Of a stretch of DNA of 64,000 nt, positions 345 to 23,274 are shown piece by piece. Source of the DNA: Actinomycetota bacterium. GTDB taxonomy: Bacteria > Actinomycetota > Acidimicrobiia > Acidimicrobiales > RAAP-2. Location of the stretch: NCBI GenBank assembly GCA_021324355.1, contig JAJPJD010000018.1:93369-157368 (forward strand), in the 5' to 3' direction. Numbering within the stretch: position 1 is the stretch's first letter; every line of letters begins with the position of its first letter. The position numbers and the translations under genes were made by a program. The notes below the pieces were generated by a model. That model had not been told where the DNA came from. It was given only the letters and a program-made list of their open reading frames with translations, and made no database searches.

Positions 345-373
345 TTGTCCGCCCTGGCGAGGCGTGCCACAAT
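345..373 (+). promoter_or_regulatory. Putative sigma70-like promoter of the ilvB leader (TTGTCC-17bp-CACAAT)
   Basis: -35 TTGTCC 345-350, 17 bp spacer, -10 CACAAT 368-373; leader ATG begins at 383. Confidence 0.6.
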
Positions 374-382
374 GGGGCCACC

Positions 383-433
383 ATGAGCACGAGGGGCACC
401 GCCGCCGGCACGATCCTGGTACTGGTTACCTAG
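383..433 (+). CDS. Leader peptide [16 protein letters not shown] (ILVLV run), attenuator of ilvBNC
   Basis: ATG AGC ACG AGG GGC ACC GCC GCC GGC ACG ATC CTG GTA CTG GTT ACC TAG; BCAA codons just before stop; followed by hairpin and terminator upstream of ilvB. Confidence 0.8.
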
Positions 434-459
434 CGCGCGGCCACATCTCCGCCGCGCGC
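433..459 (+). promoter_or_regulatory. Hairpin 1 of ilvB attenuator, starting on the last base of the leader stop codon
   Basis: GCGCGCGG (433-440) / CCGCGCGC (452-459), 11-nt loop CCACATCTCCG. Confidence 0.7.
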
Positions 460-461
460 CC

Positions 462-489
462 ACGACCTCCCGTTCCGGGAGGTCGTTTT
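462..489 (+). terminator. Intrinsic terminator/attenuator upstream of ilvB
   Basis: Perfect 11-bp stem ACGACCTCCCG-TTC-CGGGAGGTCGT (462-486) followed by TTTT. Confidence 0.85.
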
Positions 490-575
490 CGTGTCTGGCC
501 TCTTGCCCAGACCCGCTCGCCACCGACCAACCAGGCCCGCCGACAGCGTGGCCGACCGACACAAAAGGACAGACC

Positions 576-11338: not shown

Positions 11339-11367
11339 TTGACCAGGGGCGCCGACGATGCCATCAT
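11339..11367 (+). promoter_or_regulatory. Putative promoter of leuA leader (TTGACC-17bp-CATCAT)
   Basis: -35 TTGACC 11339-11344; -10 CATCAT 11362-11367; leader ATG at 11377. Confidence 0.55.
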
Positions 11368-11369
11368 GA

Positions 11370-13262
<1,893 letters not shown>

Positions 13263-19406: not shown

Positions 19407-19442
19407 GCCGAAGCGGACCCTTGGGCCGCCCGGTGGGGCTGG

Positions 19443-19472
19443 TTGACGTGGCGGGGGAGCGCAGGGGACAAT
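19443..19472 (+). promoter_or_regulatory. Putative promoter of the leuB-ilvE-cimA leader (TTGACG-18bp-GACAAT)
   Basis: -35 TTGACG 19443-19448; -10 GACAAT 19467-19472; leader ATG at 19481. Confidence 0.6.
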
Positions 19473-19480
19473 GGTGGCTC

Positions 19481-19516
19481 ATGTTCGTCGCCCACGGCCA
19501 GGTGATCATCGTGTAG
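19481..19516 (+). CDS. Leader peptide MFVAHGQVIIV (VIIV immediately before stop), attenuator of leuB-ilvE-cimA
   Basis: ATG TTC GTC GCC CAC GGC CAG GTG ATC ATC GTG TAG followed by two hairpins. Confidence 0.75.
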   Translation: MFVAHGQVIIV

Positions 19517-19539
19517 GCACGTGCCCACCGGCACGTGCC
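19516..19539 (+). promoter_or_regulatory. Hairpin 1 of leuB attenuator, starting on the last base of the leader stop
   Basis: Perfect 10-bp stem GGCACGTGCC-CACC-GGCACGTGCC. Confidence 0.75.
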
Positions 19540-19543
19540 TGTT

Positions 19544-19570
19544 CGACCGTCCACTTGGTGGGCGGTCGTT
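19544..19570 (+). terminator. Terminator-like hairpin upstream of leuB (weak U tract)
   Basis: CGACCGTCCAC-TTG-GTGGGCGGTCG, 11 bp with one G-U pair, followed by TTGCAT. Confidence 0.65.
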
Positions 19571-19672
19571 GCATATTCAGACCCATTTCGCGAGCGGACC
19601 AGAGCTGATGGACCACACTACAGAGATGCACCGGGAGCACCTGAGCGCGTCGGGCGGCCAGGCGGTGCCCAC

Positions 19673-20719
19673 GTGACCGGCCGCCGCCACGCGGTGGCGG
19701 TCATCGGCGGCGACGGGATCGGCCCCGAGGTGGTGGCCGAGGCGCTCAAGGTGGTCGAGGCGGCCGGGGTTGCCCTCGACACCACCACCTATGAGCTGGG
19801 GGCGGCCCACTACCTGCGCACCGGCGAGGTTCTCAGCGACGAGGTCCTCGAGGAGCTGCGGGGGTTCGACGCCATCTTGCTCGGGGCGGTCGGACCGCCG
19901 GTCGGCGACACCTCGGTCCCGCCGGGCCTGCTCGAGCGGGGGCTCCTGCTCAAGCTCCGCTTCGAGCTCGACCTGTACATCAATCTGCGGCCCTTCGCTG
20001 GCGCCCCCGGTGCCATCGCCGAGGGGGCCGAGTTCGTGGTGGTTCGGGAGAACACCGAGGGCGCCTACGCCGGCGAGGGCGGGTTCCTGCGCCGGGGCAC
20101 CCAGCACGAGATCGCCACCCAGGGCTCGGTGAACACCCGGATGGGGGTCGAGCGGTGCGTCCGGTTCGCCTTCGAGCTGGCCGAGCGCCGCCCGGCGCAC
20201 CGGCTCACCTTGGTCCACAAGACCAACGTGCTCACCTTCGCCGGCGACCTGTGGCGGCGGACGGTCGAAGAGGTCGCCGCCGACCACAGCGGGGTGGCGC
20301 ACGACTACCAGCACGTCGACGCGGCCTGCATCTACCTGGTCGAGCGGCCCCGCAGCTACGACGTGATCGTGACCGACAACCTGTTCGGCGACATCCTCAC
20401 CGACCTGGCCGGGGCGGTGTGCGGCGGCCACGGCCTCTCCCCGTCGGCCAACCTCAACCCGGCCCGCACCGGGCCGTCGCTGTTCGAGCCGGTCCACGGG
20501 GCGGCCCACGACATCGCCGGCCAGGGAGTGGCGAACCCGGTCGCGGCCATCCGGTCGGCCAGCCTCATGCTCGACTTTTTGGGCGAGACCGACGCAGCGG
20601 CCCGCATCGACAAGGCGGTCGCCGACCTCGTCGGCTCCGGCCAGCTCTCCCGCCCCCCAACCGGCGCCGACCGGTGGTCGACCTCGGCCATCGGCGAGGC
20701 CATCGCAGAAAGGCTCTGA
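19673..20719 (+). CDS. leuB: 3-isopropylmalate dehydrogenase
   Basis: [32 protein letters not shown]...LLGAVGPP...[24 protein letters not shown]. Confidence 0.93.
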
Positions 20720-20720
20720 G

Positions 20721-21650
20721 ATGCCCATCACCCCGACCGAGAAGATCTGGATGGACGGTGAGCTGGTCGACTGGGCCGACGCCACCGTGCACGTCCTCAC
20801 CCACACCATGCACTACGGCTCGGGGGTCTTCGAGGGGATCCGGGCCTACAAGACCGCCCGGGGGGTGGCCATCTTCCGGCTGCGCGACCACATCGAGCGC
20901 CTCTTCGCCTCGGCCAAGGTCCTCATGATCGAGATGCCCTACAGCCTGGACCAGGTGCTGGAGGCCTGCCGCCAGGTGGTGAGGGTGAACCGGCTGCACG
21001 ACGGCTGCTACCTGCGCCCGATCGTCTACCTCGGCTACGGCGAGATGGGGCTCAACCCGCTGCCGTGCCCGGTCAACGTGGCCATCGCGGCCTGGCCGTG
21101 GGCCAGCTACCTGGGCGACGAGGGGGTGGCCAACGGGGTCCGGGTGAAGGTCAGCTCGTGGCAGCGCCACGACCCCAACGCGGTACCCACCGCGGCCAAG
21201 AGCACCGGCATGTACCTCAACTCCTCGCTGGCCAAGGTGGAAGCCCTGAAGGCCGGGTACGACGAGGCCATCTTGCTGGCACCGGACGGGCACGTGAGCG
21301 AGTGCACCGGGGAGAACCTCTTCATCGTGCGCGACGGGACGCTGATCACCCCCCCGTCCTCGGATGCCGGCGCCCTGGACGGCATCACCCAGCGCTCGGT
21401 CGAGACCATCGCCACCGATCTCGGCTACGGCCTGGAGCACGAGGCCCTGATCCGCACCGATCTCTACCTGGCTGACGAGGCCTTCCTCACCGGGACCGCG
21501 GCCGAGGTGGTCCCGATCTGCTCGGTCGACGACCGGCCGGTCGGGACCGGGCGACCCGGGCCGATCACCAAAGAGATCCAGTCGGTCTTCTTCGCCACCG
21601 TGCGCGGCGAGGTCGACCGGTACAAGGACTGGTTGGACCATGTCGAGTAG
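20721..21650 (+). CDS. ilvE: Branched-chain amino acid aminotransferase
   Basis: TPTEKIWMDGELVDWADATVHVLTHTMHYGSGVFEGIRAY...VSECTGENLFIVRDG. Confidence 0.96.
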   Translation: MPITPTEKIWMDGELVDWADATVHVLTHTMHYGSGVFEGIRAYKTARGVAIFRLRDHIERLFASAKVLMIEMPYSLDQVLEACRQVVRVNRLHDGCYLRPIVYLGYGEMGLNPLPCPVNVAIAAWPWASYLGDEGVANGVRVKVSSWQRHDPNAVPTAAKSTGMYLNSSLAKVEALKAGYDEAILLAPDGHVSECTGENLFIVRDGTLITPPSSDAGALDGITQRSVETIATDLGYGLEHEALIRTDLYLADEAFLTGTAAEVVPICSVDDRPVGTGRPGPITKEIQSVFFATVRGEVDRYKDWLDHVE

Positions 21651-23274
21651 CCCCCGAGCGCATCTCCACCGGCCCGCCTCGCACGACTTCACCATGCCGA
21701 GCTGGCCTGATTCGGTCGACATCTTCGACACCACGCTGCGCGACGGCAGCCAGCAGGAGGGGCTCTCCCTCACCGTGGACGACAAGCTCCGGGTGGCCGA
21801 GCAGCTCGACCACCTGGGCGTGGCCTACATCGAGGGGGGGTGGCCAGGCGCCAACCCCAAGGACGACGAGTTCTTCCGCCGTGCCCCGAGCGAGCTTCGC
21901 CTCGGCACCTCGACCCTGGTGGCCTTCTCGTCCACTCGTCGAGCCGGGGGCCGGGCCGAGGAGGACGAGACGCTGCGCAAGCTGGTCGAGGCCGGGACCT
22001 CGACGGTGTGCATCGTCGCCAAGTCCTGGGACCGCCACGTGACCGACGCGCTGCGCACCGACCTCGACGAGGCAGTGGCCATGGTGGCCGATTCGGTCGA
22101 GTTCCTCCGCCGCCACGACAAGCGGGTGTTCCTCGACGCCGAGCACTTCTTCGACGGCTACCGGCACAATCCGGAGTTCGCCCTCCGGGTGCTTCGGGCG
22201 GCCGAGGAGGCCGGGGCCGAGGCCCTGGTCCTGTGCGACACCAACGGCGGGGCGCTGCCCCACCAGGTCGCGGTCGCAGTCGCAGAGGTCCGCGAGCGGA
22301 CCAGTGCCCAGATCGGGATCCACTGCCACAACGACACCGGCTGCGCGGTCGCCAACACGTTGGCCGCGGTGGCCGCTGGTGCCACCCACGTGCAGGGCTG
22401 CATCAACGGCTACGGCGAGCGGGCCGGCAACGCGGATCTGGCCGCGGCCATCCCGGACCTCACCCTCAAGCTGTCCGTGCGCACGATCCCGCCCGAGCGG
22501 ATGGAGCGACTGACCGCGGTCTCCCACCACATCGCCGAGCTGGTCAACGTGGCCCCGAACCCCCAGCAGCCCTACGTGGGGGCCTCGGTGTTCGCCCACA
22601 AGGGCGGGCTGCACGCCAGCGCGATCGCTCGCCGGCGCGACCTCTACGAGCACGTGCCGCCGGACTCGGTTGGCAACGGCACCAGAGTGGTGGTCTCGGA
22701 GATGGCCGGCCGCTCCACGCTGGCCATGAAGGCCACCGAGCTCGGCCTGGACCTCGACGGCGAGGTCCTGGGCCGGGTGCTCGACGAGCTCAAGCGGCTG
22801 GAGCACGAGGGCTACCACTTCGAGGTGGCCGACGGTTCGCTGGAGCTGCTGCTGCGACGGGCGAGCGGGTGGGAGCCCGACTTCTTCACCGTCGAGTCCT
22901 TCCGGGTCATCACCGATCACGGCGGGTCGGCAGCCGGCGGTCCGCTCACCACCGAGGCCACGGTGAAGGTCCATGTCGGCTCGCAGCGGGTGGTGGCGAC
23001 CGCCGAGGGCAATGGTCCGGTCAATGCGCTGGACGCCGCCTTGCGCCAGGCGGTCGAGCCGCACTTCCCGGCACTGGCCGGCATCCGGCTCACCGACTAC
23101 CGGGTTCGGGTGCTCGACAGCGGCGTGGGGACCGGAGCCGTGACCCGGGTGCTGGTCGACACCAGCGACGACCAGAGCACCTGGACCACCATCGGGGTGT
23201 CGGAGAACATCATCGAGGCCAGCTGGCAGGCCCTGTACGACTCGATCGTCCTCGGTCTGCTGAGGGCAGGGTGA
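21640..23274 (+). CDS. cimA: (R)-citramalate synthase
   Basis: VDIFDTTLRDGSQQEGLSLTVDDKLRVAEQLDHLGVAYIEGGWPGANPKDDEFF...; citramalate-synthase subclass of the LeuA superfamily; true start may be ATG 21693. Confidence 0.9.
   Translation: MSSSPRAHLHRPASHDFTMPSWPDSVDIFDTTLRDGSQQEGLSLTVDDKLRVAEQLDHLGVAYIEGGWPGANPKDDEFFRRAPSELRLGTSTLVAFSSTRRAGGRAEEDETLRKLVEAGTSTVCIVAKSWDRHVTDALRTDLDEAVAMVADSVEFLRRHDKRVFLDAEHFFDGYRHNPEFALRVLRAAEEAGAEALVLCDTNGGALPHQVAVAVAEVRERTSAQIGIHCHNDTGCAVANTLAAVAAGATHVQGCINGYGERAGNADLAAAIPDLTLKLSVRTIPPERMERLTAVSHHIAELVNVAPNPQQPYVGASVFAHKGGLHASAIARRRDLYEHVPPDSVGNGTRVVVSEMAGRSTLAMKATELGLDLDGEVLGRVLDELKRLEHEGYHFEVADGSLELLLRRASGWEPDFFTVESFRVITDHGGSAAGGPLTTEATVKVHVGSQRVVATAEGNGPVNALDAALRQAVEPHFPALAGIRLTDYRVRVLDSGVGTGAVTRVLVDTSDDQSTWTTIGVSENIIEASWQALYDSIVLGLLRAG

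Follow-up and report, generated by a model that had tools for sequence, protein, structure and literature searches.

Why is an operon headed by leuB preceded by a leader peptide that contains no Leu codon? The question arises at one locus of an Acidimicrobiales bacterium (contig JAJPJD010000018.1), inside a stretch of 64,000 nucleotides that was analysed as a whole and is called here the window. We propose that the element upstream of leuB is a ribosome-mediated transcription attenuator of leuB-ilvE-cimA, which would read the charging of Val- and Ile-tRNA and in which a first hairpin, H1, would report the position of the ribosome. From sequence analysis, we give this reading a probability of roughly 0.85. 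It is built on the anatomy of the element, its conservation, the covariation of H1 and of a second, terminator-like hairpin (T), and the match between leader codons and downstream gene; the direction of control and the termination at T are inferred.

The features of the locus are collected in Table 1. The preliminary description had read here a Leu-free leader, MFVAHGQVIIV*, and a 10-bp self-complementary hairpin with a CACC loop that overlaps the TAG; the window sequence bears out both, and the coordinates and the pair count given at that time are correct. Only 8 nt separate the -10 box from the ATG of this 11-codon ORF, and the gap between -10 box and start codon measures 6-10 nt in 112 relatives, 57 of which carry the exact TTGACG. 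The transcript is predicted to be leaderless, beginning on the leader ATG or adjacent to it.

Table 1. Positions, in the window, of the leuB element, its operon and the two sister attenuators
Feature	Positions	Strand	Description
Promoter	19443..19472	+	sigma-70-type; TTGACG 19443-19448, 18-nt spacer, GACAAT 19467-19472; 9/12 match, 0.0 expected
Leader ORF MFVAHGQVIIV*	19481..19516	+	ATG 19481; GTG ATC ATC GTG 19502-19513; TAG 19514-19516
Hairpin H1	19515..19540	+	GGCACGTGCC-CACC-GGCACGTGCC at 19516-19539 plus A19515-T19540; 11 bp; begins within the stop codon
Terminator-like hairpin T	19544..19568	+	CGACCGTCCAC-TTG-GTGGGCGGTCG; arms change together in other classes
T-rich tail (weak U tract)	19569..19577	+	TTGCATATT; TTTTTCAATT in most relatives
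leuB, 3-isopropylmalate dehydrogenase	19673..20719	+	NCBIfam NF002898
ilvE, branched-chain transaminase	20721..21650	+	NCBIfam TIGR01122
cimA, citramalate synthase	21640..23274	+	NCBIfam TIGR00977
ilvB sister attenuator	345..500	+	promoter TTGTCC-CACAAT 345-373; leader 383-433; H1 433-459; T 462-486
leuA sister attenuator	11339..11478	+	promoter TTGACC-CATCAT 11339-11367; leader 11377-11415; H1 11417-11440; T 11446-11469, then TTTTTG

The answer to the opening question probably lies in the operon itself. NCBIfam confirms the identities that had been assigned to leuB, ilvE and cimA; leuB begins about 100 nt past the T-rich tail, and ilvE and cimA then adjoin without gaps. CimA, together with LeuCD and LeuB, produces 2-ketobutyrate for isoleucine, and IlvE catalyses the last step for Val, Ile and Leu. 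No threonine deaminase was found in the 96%-complete genome, where the best deaminase-like match is threonine synthase, so that CimA is likely the isoleucine source of this organism. Because it includes the citramalate route, an operon that begins with leuB can be read as an isoleucine operon. The Leu codon would be missing for this reason, and also because leuA, 8 kb upstream in the window, is served by a Leu leader of its own. Between the tail and leuB, a 22-codon ORF (19609-19676) shares the sequence GTGA with the GTG start of leuB, an overlap that may serve translational coupling; in one congener (L003), the start of the corresponding short ORF runs in frame into leuB.

The preliminary description had named the absence of the leader from relatives as one finding that would speak against it. 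On the contrary, the leader is conserved. When LeuB was searched in 61 related genomes, 58 of them with a usable upstream region, the element lay before leuB in 49 of the 58 (E <= 0.01) and in 32 of the 34 belonging to the same family. A covariance model of the element matches 186 of the 299 genomes of the order (150/228 among those of good quality) and 37 of 398 genomes across the phylum, mostly from the same order and class. This model spans the last 24 nt of the leader, and leader conservation among its matches is therefore partly by construction; three other data sets are free of this bias, i.e., the first 42 sequences, which were chosen by their terminator sequence independently of the leader, the ilvB and leuA sets, obtained via the protein family, and a codon-blind scan of the window. 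As a separate observation, three loci (L005, L017 and L019), of which one comes from a genome in the window's genus, share a near-identical leader region, M-x-SR-x-ASR-x-HVI[IS]FD*, unlike the leaders of the other members of that genus; this suggests either transfer or mixed bins.

The two hairpins are conserved as structures. In the window, comparison with 200 dinucleotide shuffles gives a folding z of -5.6 for the region, and both hairpins were folded in 173 of 174 elements. In 160 of 173 elements, H1, mostly of 9-12 bp, has its first base at position 0-2 of the stop codon, and T follows it after mostly 2-5 nt (3 nt in the window). The covariation that had been suggested as a check is present: among 101 sequences, compensatory changes occur at 10/10 pairs of H1 and at 5/9 pairs of T, in an alignment that was fitted to the model, and none of 500 shuffles matches the observed covariation. 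A model-free alignment of the first 42 sequences also gives compensatory changes at 8/10 pairs of H1. T hardly varies within the leuB class (CCGTCCAC-n-GTGGGCGG, its U-G pair being kept). Its arms become CGACCTCCC/GGGAGGTCG in the ilvB class and ACCTCCTGCGCC/GGCCAGGAGGT in the leuA class. We also considered a DNA operator at CCGTCCAC-n-GTGGGCGG, which is disfavoured by a loop that varies from 3 to 7 nt and by the sequence changes in the other classes; elsewhere in the genome, the T motif is not more frequent than a reversed control.

Is T a terminator? It lies, with its T-rich tail, between the leader and the first gene, as an intrinsic terminator should, and transcription would probably end there. 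The preliminary description judged the U tract poor. With 5 T in 9 it is indeed weaker than most, but the worry is largely removed by the comparison with relatives: 52 of 173 have the same count, T stems are mostly of 9-11 bp with tails of mostly 5-7 T per 9 nt, and the window copy has a longer 11-bp stem in place of a strong U tract, relatives having mostly TTTTTCAATT. The minimum-energy fold of the window's leader and hairpins is without T, whereas about 95% of relatives include T in theirs. When the 5' arm of H1 was masked, T was still in the minimum-energy fold in 96% of cases.

The leader codons carry the signal expected of a leader-peptide attenuator, i.e., a run of codons for the amino acids that the operon produces. 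Across 151 leuB-class leaders, Val and Ile occupy residues -5 to -2, with Ile at -2 in 140 and Val at -5 in 109; residue -1 can be any, often Pro or Arg. Rare codons are preferred at these positions: GTA makes up 61% of the Val codons in the leader tails versus 3.3% in leuB, and ATT 42% of the Ile codons versus 9%. The window leader is a mild outlier, since it uses the common codons GTG and ATC and since its VIIV directly abuts the stop.

The same layout recurs in the window. Both strands of the 64-kb window were scanned, without regard to amino acids, for three features in a row: a short ORF that has a -10 box, a hairpin at its stop, and another hairpin with a T-rich tail. Exactly three places matched, before ilvB, leuA and leuB; all three leaders contain branched-chain codons, and in each copy a T-rich tail comes after the second hairpin. 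The ilvB leader has 16 residues ending in ILVLVT* (stop at 431) and the leuA leader 12 residues ending in VLLLT* (stop at 11413). Relatives were scanned for ilvB and leuA leaders by requiring at least three of L, V and I among the last six codons, with their identity left free. Regulatory codons track the downstream gene in four gene classes: V/I/I at leuB-ilvE-cimA, IIII at cimA, mixtures of L, V and I at ilvB (LV(V/L)(I/V), e.g., LVVI or LVLV), and LLL(L) at leuA, i.e., LLLL or VLLL.

Several side observations concern these sister copies. Most ilvB loci of relatives (L221-L250) carry a leader similar to that of the window's ilvB copy, and, within the family, the H1 loop of the leuA copy, CACATC, recurs in the majority of leuA copies and in many of the ilvB ones. 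In Nonomuraea gerenzanensis (L281, 4848-4936), a short ORF, MFYGLLIIGRRAG*, and two hairpins stand directly before cimA; branched-chain leaders at cimA may extend beyond the window's class.

The tracking of the gene by the codons bears on an alternative in which the terminator and the stop-codon hairpin operate without amino-acid sensing, the ORF being translated and control being constitutive or exerted by a trans factor. In Streptomyces coelicolor, mutations of the candidate codons of ilvB and leuA did contradict the predictions of classical attenuation (PMC1262725). Against this stand the codon identities in the four classes, the strong enrichment of rare codons at precisely those positions, and the ilvB1 attenuator of Mycobacterium tuberculosis, in which the change from LVVI to AAAA abolishes induction (PMC13236596); we regard an element blind to amino acids as improbable. 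The earlier suggestion that the leader of the leuB operon is tuned to Val and Ile is thus upheld by conservation, by the matching of codons to genes and by the logic of the isoleucine pathway.

How would the position of the ribosome be transmitted to T? The preliminary description proposed a classical route, in which 19522-19531, the top of H1, would pair with the loop and 3' arm of T (19555-19564) as a mutually exclusive antiterminator or pseudoknot. The ten pairs, three of them G-U, do exist in the window, where the duplex reaches -17.1 kcal/mol (-15.5 in one congener); with 50% C and 11% G, the H1 loops are rich in C and poor in G, so that some G-rich partner is always available, and a pairing between the P1 loop and P2 has been proposed for the Corynebacterium ilvB-II motif (PMC10272879). 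However, this pairing is not conserved. In 216 relatives, the complementarity between the H1 top and the T 3' arm equals that of shuffled H1 tops (z = +0.3; -0.4 in the leuB class alone), and its strength varies between sequences of the genus, from strong to weak, other congeners giving -5.9 to -8.6 kcal/mol. H1 and T together are also more stable than the alternative. Class swaps revealed no consistent preference of H1 for the T of its own class. More generally, when the leader and the 5' arm, loop and 3' arm of H1 were compared with both arms of T, using mono- and dinucleotide shuffles, class swaps and relatives, no pairing was clearly enriched. Between the H1 3' arm and the T 5' arm, complementarity even falls below that of shuffles, which argues against a 2:3 strand and is expected if T must fold once H1 opens. 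An antiterminator sharing a strand with the terminator, the mark of the classical strand-exchange subtype, is possible in the window sequence but finds no support across the relatives, and we consider this mechanism unlikely. If the absence of an antiterminator holds, textbook strand exchange fails to cover this attenuator family.

According to the ribosome-mediated attenuator that we favor, RNA polymerase would initiate on the leader AUG or beside it; a ribosome would load on the 5' end and translate the 11 codons. With abundant Val- and Ile-tRNA, it would reach the UAG and cover the H1 5' arm, T would form and transcription would end. With scarce Val- or Ile-tRNA, the ribosome would halt on the codons before the stop, H1 would stay folded, T would be prevented and the operon would be transcribed. 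The geometry is compatible with these two states. A ribosome extends about 12 nt ahead of its A-site; given this size, it covers the H1 5' arm when standing at the stop and leaves H1 whole when halted at -5 to -3. With H1 beginning so close to the first base of the stop codon, coverage of its 5' arm would be confined to a ribosome at the stop. Which state is ON would follow from the pathway: starvation must give readthrough, hence the halted ribosome with H1 whole would be the ON state and the ribosome at the stop the OFF state.

As for the way in which T would be prevented, we put forward a doubtful proposal without antiterminator: a folded H1 would shorten the RNA between the stalled ribosome and the polymerase, and leave T without room. 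With the ribosome at codon -5 and both hairpins folded, a median of 31 nt remains unfolded from the P-site to the transcript end, compared with 42 nt when the ribosome stands at the stop codon and H1 is open. It was reported that collided complexes are incompatible with terminator hairpins (PMC7858274) and that, in the pyrL system, a trailing ribosome lowers termination (PMC10135430). If the spacing model is true, one architecture could be re-tuned to any amino acid by codon changes alone, as the leuB, cimA, ilvB and leuA copies suggest.

The vicinity of H1 and the hungry codons also allows another scenario, in which ribosomes slip at these codons during starvation, miss the stop, and block T by translating through H1 and T. 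H1 lies a few nucleotides past the codons, a distance able to stimulate slippage, and frames +1 and +2 frequently stay free of stop codons through T. Yet the open frames (121 and 93 of 133, for 107 and 82 expected) are barely above those of composition-matched sequences and no slippery sequence is evident, which makes starvation frameshifting highly improbable.

Whatever the link between H1 and T, the leuB, cimA, ilvB and leuA attenuators form a large comparable set in which the codons vary with the gene and the layout stays fixed. In effect, nature has swapped the codons, which offers an experiment on amino-acid sensing in actinobacteria, a group in which the results of codon mutations contradict each other.

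In the enterobacterial trp, his and leu attenuators, the position of the ribosome on the leader ORF decides termination. Unlike there, the control codons of the present element lie 5' of H1, outside a 1:2 stem, and no strand shared between 2:3 and 3:4 was found. Rfam covariance models gave no match at the gathering score in the window and none at E <= 5 in 19430-19680, and T-boxes and riboswitches were among the classes without a match. A limited literature search returned no work joining Acidimicrobiia and an attenuator.

Several actinobacterial systems come closer. The LEU element resembles the leuA sister copy of the window by its Leu-run leader before leuA, but it is a pseudoknot with the leuA Shine-Dalgarno sequence, whereas the window's leuA copy has H1 and a U-tailed terminator (PMC1262725); the leuB leader falls outside this element, having no Leu codon and a U-tailed terminator. 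In Streptomyces lividans, leuL, ilvL and trpL are likewise short-peptide ORFs transcribed leaderless ahead of amino-acid genes, and two hairpins occur in some of them. However, its ilvL (MRTRILVLGKRVG*) has the codons farther from the stop, and a Val/Ile leader of leuB or cimA is not among the leaders listed there (PMC8079986). Corynebacterium ilvB-II shares the two stem-loops, a branched-chain uORF and a second stem-loop that is the terminator; its P1 spans the uORF, whereas here H1 begins at the uORF stop, and gene and lineage differ (PMC10272879). The leuB element is not a member of ilvB-II, which has ilvB downstream and the uORF inside P1: its gene is leuB and its uORF ends where H1 begins.

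Elements of this kind are known, and what makes the present one a variant is the gene it precedes, the placement of H1 at the stop codon and the lack of an antiterminator. Among tested attenuators, that of the M. tuberculosis ilvB1NC operon comes nearest; its induction is lost when the LVVI codons of the uORF are mutated. Both place branched-chain codons in a short uORF, with four regulatory codons including GUA in M. tuberculosis, before a Rho-independent terminator, and the ilvB copies of the window's type end in LVVI or LVLV, close to its LVVI. They differ in that ilvB1 has a 166-nt leader with a proposed terminator/antiterminator switch, whereas here the transcript is predicted to be leaderless and the antiterminator is not conserved; the placement before leuB-ilvE-cimA is not described for M. 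tuberculosis in that paper (PMC13236596).
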